The position numbers and the translations under genes are program-made. Of a stretch of 55,501 nt of DNA, positions 39,356 through 47,542 are shown piece by piece; the stretch's first letter is position 1; every line of letters starts with the position of its first letter. Where the stretch lies: NCBI GenBank assembly GCA_013002865.1, contig JABDLU010000163.1:1-55501 (forward strand). Reading direction: 5' to 3'. This stretch comes from Acidimicrobiia bacterium. GTDB taxonomy: Bacteria; Actinomycetota; Acidimicrobiia; Spongiisociales; SHLN01. Under the pieces are notes generated by a model that searched no databases, had not been told where the DNA came from, and was given only the letters and a program-made list of their open reading frames with translations.

Positions 39356-39757
39356 ATGAACTCGACCACCTATCGCCTGATCTATGCCGCCCTCGGCCTC
39401 GCCCTGATTGCCGTTGCCGGCTTCGCCATTGCGCTCAACCCGAGCGGAAACGAGGCCGAGCTGCCCGACCCGGTTGAGCGAGTGTTCCCGCGCCCCAACG
39501 ACTCGGTGGTTCGCCAGACGGTCATCGAGGTCGACCTGCAGGTGGGATACGAGCTGACGCTGTTCGTGGACGGCATCCGGATCGCACCCGGCGAAATCGA
39601 CATTCAGGCAGGCACCAACCTGCACGTTTGGCAGCCGGCGCCGGGCCGCTTTCTGGAGGATTGGGCACCGGGTCCGCACGAGATCCGGATCGAGTGGCAG
39701 CGAACCACCGGCTTGCCCGATCCCGGCTCCTTCAGCTGGACGTTCCGGGTGCAGTGA
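39356..39757 (+). CDS. Membrane-anchored Ig-like domain protein
   Basis: A 133-residue protein: one N-terminal membrane helix (YRLIYAALGLALIAVAGFAI, about residues 6-25) and an outside beta-sandwich of about 95 residues with VFPRPNDSVVRQTVIEVDL, LTLFVDGIRIAP, HVWQPAPGRFLEDWAPGPHE and WTFRVQ. The pattern is that of bacterial Ig-like or carbohydrate-free sandwich folds seen in envelope proteins. No function recognised. The stop overlaps the start of the Nfo-PrimPol fusion by GTGA, an odd pairing of an envelope protein and a DNA-repair enzyme. Confidence 0.7.
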   Translation: MNSTTYRLIYAALGLALIAVAGFAIALNPSGNEAELPDPVERVFPRPNDSVVRQTVIEVDLQVGYELTLFVDGIRIAPGEIDIQAGTNLHVWQPAPGRFLEDWAPGPHEIRIEWQRTTGLPDPGSFSWTFRVQ

Positions 39758-41562
39758 CGGTCGCCTTCGGAATCTCCGGGCTGCCCCCGAGCGAAACCGG
39801 CGACGACGCCTTCCTCGACGGCCTCGCCGCCGAAGGCCACACCGCCCTCGAACTGGCGTTCACCAAGGGCTTTCCCTGGAAGGAGGCCCGCTGCCAACAG
39901 TTCGGCCGGCGCGCCGCCGATGCCGGAATCCGACTTTCGGTGCACGCCCCGTACTTCGCCATGCTGACCATCGACGAGCCCGATCGGCACGCCAGGACCC
40001 GGGCCGCCGTTGAGCACTCCATGAAGCTGGCCGGACACCTGGGCGCCGCGGTGGTCGTCGTCCACCCCGGTCATGACCGGGAGCGGACCTCCGACCAGTT
40101 GCTGGAGACGGCGCTCGAGGCGCTGGGCGCCATCGAGCCGAAAGTACGCCACCTCGGGGTGTCACTCGGCCTCGAAACCACCGGAACGGCCAACGCGTTC
40201 GGGAATCTGGGGGACATCTCGCTGATGGCGGCCGAGTTCCCGTGGGTTCGGCCGGTGGTCGACTGGGCCCATGTGCACGCCATCACCGACGGGCGGCTGA
40301 CCGACCTCGAAGCGGTGCGCTCGGTGTTCCACTTCCTCTTCGACCAGTTTCCGGCCTGGAAGCTCCAGCCACTGCATTGCCACTACAGCCACAATGCCTT
40401 CGGGCCCGGGGGCGAGATCAAGCACGTCCCGTACGGTGACGGCACAAACCCGGTCGAGCCGGTCGTAGCGGCGGCAGCCGAATTGGACGTCGACCTCACG
40501 CTGGTGTCCGAGTCACGCGACGCCGCCAGCCACCGGGCGGTGTGGAAGGACGTGTCGGCGGTGCTCGAGGAGATCGATCGGCCGGTCGCCGGTGCCCGTC
40601 CCCTCGCATCCGGCGCAATCGACTTCCCGGATCCAATCGAGATCGTCGCCGACGCCGGGGGGTTTCACCCGACGCGGCTGCGACGCCCACTGCGCCTGTC
40701 GAACCCCGACAAGCTGTTCTTTCCGGACGGCTACACCAAGGGAGACCTCGTGCAGTACTACGCCTCTATCTCCCGGACCCTGCTCCCCCATCTGGCCGGG
40801 CGGGCCATCGTCATGGCGCGCTTTCCGGACGGGGCCGACGGTGACTTCTTCTACGAGAAGCAGGCCCCGGCTCACAAGCCCGACTGGATGCCGGTTGCAC
40901 CCATTCATTCCGACGGGCGAGGCGGGCTGATCGAGTTCTGCACGGCACCTGATCGCCCATCGCTCATGTGGTTCGCCAACATGGGATGCATCGAGATCCA
41001 CCCCTGGTTGTCCCGACTGGCCACGGTCGGTCAACCCGACTTCGCCATCTTCGATCTCGACCCCGCCGAGGGAGCCAGCTGGGAACAGGTGGTGGACACC
41101 GCCCTCCACATCCGGGTGGCGCTCGACAGCCTCGGGCTCCGCTCCTACCCCAAGACATCGGGGGCCAGCGGGCTCCACATCTATGTCCCGCTCGATCCGG
41201 TCCACGATTACGCCCGGGTGCGCAAGTTCGTCGAAACGGTCGGCCGGCTCATGGTCGCCGCCGACCCCGACAATGTGACGATGGAGTGGGACATCCCATC
41301 GCGCCACGGCATGGTGTTCATCGACCACAACCAGAACGTCGGCGGCAAGACGATCGCCTCGGTATACGCGGTGCGGCCGCGGGCCGGTGCGCCGGTTTCG
41401 ACCCCCCTCGCCTGGGAGGAGGTGCCGGCGGTGCGTCCGGAGGACTTCACGATCGCCACGATCTGGGATCGAATCGACCGGGTCGGTGATCCCTTTGCCC
41501 CGGTGCTGGCCGGAGGTCAGACTCTGGATGCTGCCGAAGCGGCGCTAGGACTAACGACATGA
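39754..41562 (+). CDS. Endonuclease IV-like domain fused to LigD-type primase-polymerase domain
   Basis: About 602 residues from the GTG at 39754 (GTGA overlap; the frame is open to 39628, but the earlier part only shadows the upstream gene). Residues about 1-280 are a TIM-barrel AP endonuclease (Nfo/xylose-isomerase-like): likely metal ligands H64 (SVHAPY), H104 (VVVHPGHD), E141 (LGLETTG), D170 and H173 (VVDWAHVH), H208 or H210 (LHCHYSH), H224 (KHVPYGDG) and E253 (VSESRD). Residues about 300-602 are a LigD polymerase domain: LSNPDKLFFPDGYTKGDLVQ carries the residues that bind a 5'-phosphate in PolDom (N317, K320, K329); FDLDP (D434, D436) and VFIDHNQN (D524) are the metal-binding aspartates, and SGASGLHIYVPL the nucleotide motif. 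Predicted to cut abasic DNA and fill short gaps. No Ku and no ATP ligase adjoin it; ligA is 3 kb away. Confidence 0.87.
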   Translation: MTVAFGISGLPPSETGDDAFLDGLAAEGHTALELAFTKGFPWKEARCQQFGRRAADAGIRLSVHAPYFAMLTIDEPDRHARTRAAVEHSMKLAGHLGAAVVVVHPGHDRERTSDQLLETALEALGAIEPKVRHLGVSLGLETTGTANAFGNLGDISLMAAEFPWVRPVVDWAHVHAITDGRLTDLEAVRSVFHFLFDQFPAWKLQPLHCHYSHNAFGPGGEIKHVPYGDGTNPVEPVVAAAAELDVDLTLVSESRDAASHRAVWKDVSAVLEEIDRPVAGARPLASGAIDFPDPIEIVADAGGFHPTRLRRPLRLSNPDKLFFPDGYTKGDLVQYYASISRTLLPHLAGRAIVMARFPDGADGDFFYEKQAPAHKPDWMPVAPIHSDGRGGLIEFCTAPDRPSLMWFANMGCIEIHPWLSRLATVGQPDFAIFDLDPAEGASWEQVVDTALHIRVALDSLGLRSYPKTSGASGLHIYVPLDPVHDYARVRKFVETVGRLMVAADPDNVTMEWDIPSRHGMVFIDHNQNVGGKTIASVYAVRPRAGAPVSTPLAWEEVPAVRPEDFTIATIWDRIDRVGDPFAPVLAGGQTLDAAEAALGLTT

Positions 41563-42425
41563 GACGGATCTCTGCCAACGGCATCCACCTCGCCGTCGAG
41601 GAGGCCGGTTCGGGCTATCCGGTGGTTCTGCTGCACGGCTTTCCGGAGCTGGCCTACTCGTGGCGCCACCAGCTGCCCGCCCTGGCCGGAGCCGGTTTCC
41701 ATGCCATCGCTCCCGACCTGCGCGGATACGGTTCGTCCGACAAACCGGACGCGATCGACGAGTACCGGCTCACCACGCTGGTCGCCGATATCACCGGCCT
41801 GCTCGACGCCCTCGACCTGGAGCGGGTTGCCCTCGTTGGGCACGATTGGGGATCGATTGTTGCCTGGACGATGGCTCTCCTGCACCCCGAGCGCATAGAG
41901 CGGCTCGTGTCTCTCAACGTGCCGTACCGCGGACACTGCAACAGCTTCCCGTCCACCGACTACATCACCGAGCACCTCAGCGATCGGTTCGGCTACGTGC
42001 TCATGCTGCAGGAGCCCGGAGTTGCAGAGGCCTGGTTCGGGTCCGACCCGGCCGGCAAGCTGCGCGCCATGTATGCGCGGGCGGCCGCCGAGCCCGGCTT
42101 TCTGAGCGAGGCCGAGTTTCAGACCTACCTGGCGGCCTTCACAGCCGGCGGGATCACCGGCCCCGCCAACTACTACCGCAACATCGACCGCAACGAGCGC
42201 GACACCGCCCGGCTCGCCGACGCGCCGATCACGATGCCGACCCTGATGGTCGCCGCCGACCGGGATCCAGTGCTTCCCGCCGCCCTGACCGAGGGCATGG
42301 AGCGCTGGGTCCCCGACCTCCGGGTCCGCGTCATCGAGAACTGCGGTCACTGGACCCAGCAGGAGCAACCGGACGCATTATCCGCCGCCCTCGTAGACTT
42401 CCTGCACGATCTGCCGGGGTCCTGA
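41559..42425 (+). CDS. Alpha/beta hydrolase, epoxide-hydrolase-like
   Basis: A 288-residue alpha/beta hydrolase. HGFPELAYSWRHQLPAL carries the oxyanion HGFPE motif, DLRGYGSSDKP the conserved turn, GHDWGSIVAW an Asp nucleophile (D in GHDWG, not Ser), and NCGHWTQQEQP the catalytic His. An Asp nucleophile with HGFPE points to epoxide hydrolases (or, less likely, dehalogenases); the lid tyrosines probably lie near ANYYRNIDR. Overlaps the Nfo-PrimPol gene by ATGA, so both are co-translated, with no obvious functional link. Confidence 0.88.
   Translation: MRRISANGIHLAVEEAGSGYPVVLLHGFPELAYSWRHQLPALAGAGFHAIAPDLRGYGSSDKPDAIDEYRLTTLVADITGLLDALDLERVALVGHDWGSIVAWTMALLHPERIERLVSLNVPYRGHCNSFPSTDYITEHLSDRFGYVLMLQEPGVAEAWFGSDPAGKLRAMYARAAAEPGFLSEAEFQTYLAAFTAGGITGPANYYRNIDRNERDTARLADAPITMPTLMVAADRDPVLPAALTEGMERWVPDLRVRVIENCGHWTQQEQPDALSAALVDFLHDLPGS

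Positions 42426-43885: not shown

Positions 43886-47542
<3,657 letters not shown>

Follow-up and report, generated by a model that had tools for sequence, protein, structure and literature searches.

Several described systems couple the processing of damaged DNA ends to the filling of short gaps. Ligase D (PE-LIG-POL) provides 3'-end healing and fill-in with one protein, and the B. subtilis LigD has dRP lyase (PMC4770248). In M. smegmatis, EndoIV is the best 3'-processing partner for the gap repair of oxidised bases by Prim-PolC and LigC, and LigC was co-purified by EndoIV (PMC5663958). The 5'-phosphate pocket of Prim-PolC consists of N20, K23, Y25, K35 and P65 (PMC7442782). Bacterial PolX, a Pol beta-like enzyme with a C-terminal PHP domain, is a single chain that fills gaps and also acts as AP-endonuclease, 3'-phosphatase and 3'-diesterase (PMC9226535). 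In this study, a gene joining an endonuclease IV-like TIM barrel to a LigD-type polymerase domain (PolDom) was analyzed in a 55,501-nucleotide stretch of DNA from an Acidimicrobiia bacterium (contig JABDLU010000163.1; the whole stretch is referred to as the window), focusing on its domains, distribution, genomic company and probable function.

The mycobacterial LigC/Prim-PolC/EndoIV complex (PMC5663958, PMC7442782) likewise couples Endo IV-type 3'-end processing to the subsequent filling of short gaps by a polymerase of the LigD family whose 5'-phosphate pocket is the same, but it is built from separate proteins with a true Nfo, whereas the fusion is one chain with a barrel of another subfamily and has a separate Prim-PolC orthologue in its genome. 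PolX is the nearest functional analogue, although its X family polymerase fold and PHP nuclease fold are both unrelated to those of the fusion. The polymerase domain of Ligase D is homologous, but Ligase D has a ligase and a PE domain, neither of which was found by Pfam within the 602 aa of the fusion, and the processing part of the latter is an Endo IV-type TIM barrel instead. A protein of Actinobacteria bacterium SURF_21 (locus L032, 5464-6993, + strand, 509 aa) has its PE domain fused straight to a PolDom with no ligase; it thus resembles the fusion in carrying a 3'-processing domain on a PolDom, but has the PE fold where the fusion has a TIM barrel. No published description of the fusion was found in open-access full texts, including those on LigD, NHEJ evolution and primase-polymerase reviews, which agrees with a preliminary description of this DNA, made from the sequence alone, in which the fusion was not recognized as a described system.

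The coordinates of the gene, its domains and its neighbours are listed in Table 1. The GTG start codon and the stop of the ORF upstream overlap; this start is supported by the alignment, in which homologues begin at residues 1-5. The barrel scored 99.7 bits against PF01261 (cut-off 31.1) and covered profile positions 4-247 of 249, while the polymerase half scored 289 bits against PF21686 (cut-off 27.4) and also passed the cut-off of the NCBIfam model ligD_pol (TIGR02778; 235 vs 214.7 bits), the domain being complete. An AlphaFold2 model of the fusion, built with 26 homologues in the alignment, contained two confident domains (pLDDT 88, pTM 0.87). The single uninterrupted frame joining an Nfo-like barrel to a LigD polymerase, as read in the preliminary description, was thus confirmed, and the residues it had singled out (H64, H104, E141, D170, H173, E253, N317, K320, K329, D434, D436 and D524) lie where it had placed them and are invariant in the 26 homologues.

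Table 1. Features of the fusion gene and its flanks (positions in the window)
Feature	Position	Strand	Basis or remark
Upstream ORF, 133 aa, without Pfam match	39356..39757	+	Stop overlaps fusion GTG; kept only within genus
Fusion gene, TIM barrel plus LigD-type polymerase domain	39754..41562 (stop included; coding 39754-41559)	+	Single open frame, 602 aa, full-length homologues
AP_endonuc_2 (PF01261) TIM barrel, residues 24-272	39823..40569	+	Pfam E 2.9e-28; AF2 model; Foldseek
Predicted metal-ligand positions H64, H104, E141, D170, H173, H208/H210, E221, H224, E253	39943..40515	+	Alignment to E. coli Nfo
Interdomain linker, about residues 275-311	40576..40686	+	Low conservation; between both Pfam domains
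Predicted 5'-phosphate pocket N317, K320, F322, K329	40702..40740	+	Aligned to Prim-PolC; P358 further on
LigD_Prim-Pol (PF21686), residues 328-581	40735..41496	+	Pfam E 4.1e-86; PDB matches 5dmu, Prim-PolC 5op0/6sa0
Predicted catalytic aspartates D434, D436, D524	41053..41325	+	Invariant in 26 homologues
Alpha/beta hydrolase, downstream	41559..42425	+	Start overlaps fusion stop; context variable across order

The probability that the fusion is a chimera created by an assembly join or an annotation artefact is negligible. Most of the genomes are MAGs, and some copies are broken at the end of a contig, at N runs or by a frameshift (G313 and G638), but the identical junction was observed in dozens of independent assemblies and the fusion is intact in low-contig genomes. 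Full-length fusions in independent assemblies, at 49-79% identity, led us to reject an assembly chimera and also rule out a frameshift or join near residue 285, which the preliminary description had allowed for. The split copy of G313 was attributed to scaffolding, since both of its halves adjoin N runs, and the frameshift of G638 was discounted, the neighbouring genomes G599 and G462 carrying an intact 600-aa ORF in which the polymerase precedes the barrel.

When each GTDB species was represented by one genome, scanning identified 30 loci with a whole or partial fusion, mostly of full length and within the same range of identity. The fusion is present in about 89 of the 138 sampled genomes of the window's order, which was placed in Acidimicrobiia by record titles, and within the class, of which 395 genomes were sampled, the full-length fusion was restricted to this order, the rest of the class giving strong matches to the polymerase half only. 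A search with the barrel profile, conducted within Actinomycetota, found the same barrel subfamily in other actinobacterial families, among which f93 and f96 again have the barrel N-terminal to a PolDom; homologues with the same domain order, on which the interpretation of the preliminary description depended, are therefore found inside and outside the order. In family f89 (G462 and G599) the order is reversed, with the PolDom at residues 12-294 and the barrel at about 326-599 of 600 aa, and dozens of genomes of family f97 encode the barrel as a gene by itself. No viral copies of the fusion were found, and the search for plasmid copies gave only PolDoms of other LigD proteins.

A single clade for the TIM-linked PolDoms of both orders was not rejected (p-AU 0.40), and one polymerase lineage with swapped order and two separate fusions are both possible. 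In two further genomes (G168 and G219) only the PolDom is present (L080 3439-4446 and L081 5936-7270, both on the - strand); since these copies are nested inside the fusion clade in the tree and keep a remnant of the linker, they were read as having apparently lost their barrel secondarily. The conservation of the fusion and its occurrence in both orders argue for a functional link rather than chance joining, and the joining in both orders is the strongest indication from sequence that the activities of barrel and polymerase belong together. The reversed fusions (L147 2691-4493 and L148 6193-7995, both on the - strand) come from low-GC actinobacterial genomes in which they are the sole PolDom, and which also carry a cluster of Ku, phosphoribosyltransferase-like and ATP-ligase genes. 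Stand-alone f97 barrels were observed at loci L149, L150 and L151 (about 7.5-8.5 kb), and, as read by eye, the L150 copy and the beginning of a putative phosphomannomutase gene overlap.

The barrel shares with endonuclease IV the TIM fold and most of the metal-ligand positions. In an alignment with E. coli and actinobacterial Nfo, residues H69, H109, E145, D179, H182, H231 and E261 of Nfo correspond to H64, H104, E141, D170, H173, H224 and E253 of the barrel, each of which is retained in 79-80 of about 80 sequences. In the same sequences Nfo D229 is replaced, with a shift of one residue, by an invariant glutamate (E221), and Nfo H216 corresponds to H208/H210, a position of His or Gln. Of the two Nfo residues that recognize the abasic site, Y72 matches Y67 in 72 of 80, but R37 is replaced by F40 in the polymerase-fused barrel; the R37 loop is missing, and the H7 position is also replaced. 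The barrel is outside the Nfo family as curated, since its score against the nfo model was 27.1 bits against a cut-off of 129.65, so that the likeness to Nfo proposed in the preliminary description extends to the fold and ligands and not to membership of the family proper; NCBIfam nfo models matched the fusion at E about 1e-6, far under the curated cut-offs, and the best member of the barrel family reached about 57 bits. Profile-profile comparison of the barrel with Nfo gave a probability of 97%. A separate, ordinary Nfo is encoded in the genome of the window and in almost every genome of the order.

In the AF2 model of the barrel alone (pLDDT 91), the predicted ligands lie where the strands of the barrel end C-terminally, which is the location of the Endo IV cluster. 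Foldseek returned Endo IV as the best match of this model (TM 0.77-0.79), at sequence identities of only 16-20%, with sugar epimerases just behind (TM 0.59-0.75). Because AP_endonuc_2 is a mixed superfamily, the barrel might instead be epimerase- or isomerase-like, or a degenerate TIM barrel, with a small metabolite as its substrate or a scaffolding role for the polymerase, and would then not be a DNA nuclease. The low nfo score, the Gln found at the H216 equivalent in some of the family, and the stand-alone f97 copies, which are not evidently close to repair genes and one of which adjoins the putative phosphomannomutase gene, are in keeping with such a role. We nevertheless regard it as improbable, because the remaining Endo IV ligand positions are invariant, including those absent from two E. 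coli controls (hydroxypyruvate isomerase and fructoselysine epimerase, neither with the full ligand set), and because it would be hard to explain why a sugar enzyme should be fused to either side of a DNA polymerase. The barrel most probably works like an Endo IV-type phosphodiesterase, whose substrate may differ from that of Endo IV.

The polymerase of the fusion is apparently intact. Alignment with M. smegmatis Prim-PolC placed N317, K320, F322, K329 and P358 at the positions of the pocket residues given above, D434, D436 and D524 at those of the metal-binding aspartates (D140, D142 and D231), and F366/Y367 at that of the gap-splaying wedge (I73/Y74); all of these positions except 322 are invariant in the 26 homologues. 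Besides the fusion, the genome of the window encodes two more PolDoms, of which one is the Prim-PolC orthologue (E 1e-88) and the other is nearest to the Methanocella NHEJ polymerase 5dmu (E 8e-69), and in the tree the PolDom of the fusion forms a clade apart from both. With those two places filled by other genes, the fusion represents a third, distinct polymerase lineage, and its identification as the Prim-PolC orthologue was rejected.

The company of Ku, ligases and LigD bears on the pathway in which the fusion may act. Among genomes at least 90% complete, and with kinship ignored in the counts, 56 of the 60 that carry the fusion also have Ku and the other four lack it, compared with Ku in 6 of the 18 without the fusion. 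PE-Lig-Pol LigD was found in 0 of 89 fusion genomes and in 8 of 44 others, again with kinship ignored, and all eight belong to family f3, where one event may explain them. In the genome of the window, in which no PE domain was detected, Ku has a small ATP-dependent ligase as its neighbour; at this locus (L093, 2275-4386) the Ku gene is convergent with that of the ligase (314 aa), and the two make up a split NHEJ pair containing neither a PE nor a polymerase domain. These patterns would fit a fusion that provides end processing and fill-in to a split NHEJ system, in which the barrel replaces the PE domain of LigD, the PolDom fills, and bridging and sealing are left to Ku and an ATP ligase that is a protein of its own. 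The f89 fusion, which is the only PolDom of genomes with a Ku/ATP-ligase cluster, and the direct joining of PE and PolDom in SURF_21 point the same way. We consider an NHEJ function of this kind the main rival reading but a less likely one, since G038 (100% complete) and G062 (95%) retain the fusion as their sole PolDom with neither Ku nor ATP-dependent ligase detected, which indicates that it can be kept without NHEJ, and since the fusion adjoins Ku or a ligase in none of the loci that were read. The other PolDom nearer to NHEJ polymerases in the window's own genome and the separate PE-bearing ORF in eleven fusion genomes also speak against it, as does the disregard of phylogeny in the counts.

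On balance, the sequence comparisons lead us to read the fusion as a two-headed short-gap repair enzyme that would combine 3'-end cleaning with gap filling and act mainly on single-strand damage, a reading favoured by the mycobacterial EndoIV precedent (PMC5663958). The barrel would be a divalent-metal phosphodiesterase or phosphatase that produces a usable 3'-OH from a damaged strand end or from a lesion that has been incised. The polymerase domain would hold the 5'-phosphate across the same gap and add one or a few nucleotides, probably ribonucleotides as judged from the family, and the nick would be sealed by a separate ligase, which may be LigA or the ATP-dependent enzyme encoded next to Ku. 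The fusion would thus be a covalent version of the mycobacterial EndoIV/Prim-PolC partnership in base excision repair. More tentatively, it may be a one-protein excision-repair machine independent of Ku and LigD, in which an undescribed metallo-phosphodiesterase subfamily of the Endo IV superfamily, joined to the polymerase in both domain orders, incises or heals the lesion and passes its 3'-OH directly to a LigD-type polymerase.

As the activity of the barrel, 3'-end cleaning appears somewhat favoured over AP-site incision. The score below the Nfo cut-off, the absence of the R37 loop and the ordinary Nfo in the genome make cleaning at least as likely as incision, and, since Nfo is present nearly throughout the order, there is no obvious need for a further AP endonuclease. 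The proposal of the preliminary description that incision and gap filling are performed in one chain thus held for the conserved fusion of an Endo IV-type barrel to an intact-looking LigD-type polymerase in both orders, while its AP-site incision did not find the same support. The link to excision repair that it had drawn is plausible by the precedent of EndoIV, LigC and Prim-PolC but not unique, because the fusion occurs together with Ku and a split ATP ligase and excludes PE-LigD, a pattern that fits end joining as well.

If active, the fusion would covalently couple 3'-end processing (or AP-site incision) to gap filling by a LigD-family polymerase, and the EndoIV/Prim-PolC partnership would become testable with one purified protein. 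Its barrel would also be a novel processing domain, possibly a substitute for the phosphoesterase of LigD, and the genomes with and without Ku provide natural material to separate the excision repair and end-joining roles of LigD-family polymerases.

The flanks of the fusion gene showed little conservation outside the genus. In many families of the order the fusion is followed by a HisA-like gene (PF00977) whose product is extended at the C terminus (L009, 5857-6930, + strand, and 21 other loci), which has no evident link to repair. With variable flanks and a HisA-like neighbour that is uninformative on repair, gene neighbourhood was given up as a clue to function. In this genus the gene of the NAD-dependent DNA ligase LigA lies at positions 44455-46485 of the window, about 3 kb downstream of the fusion gene and on the opposite (-) strand.
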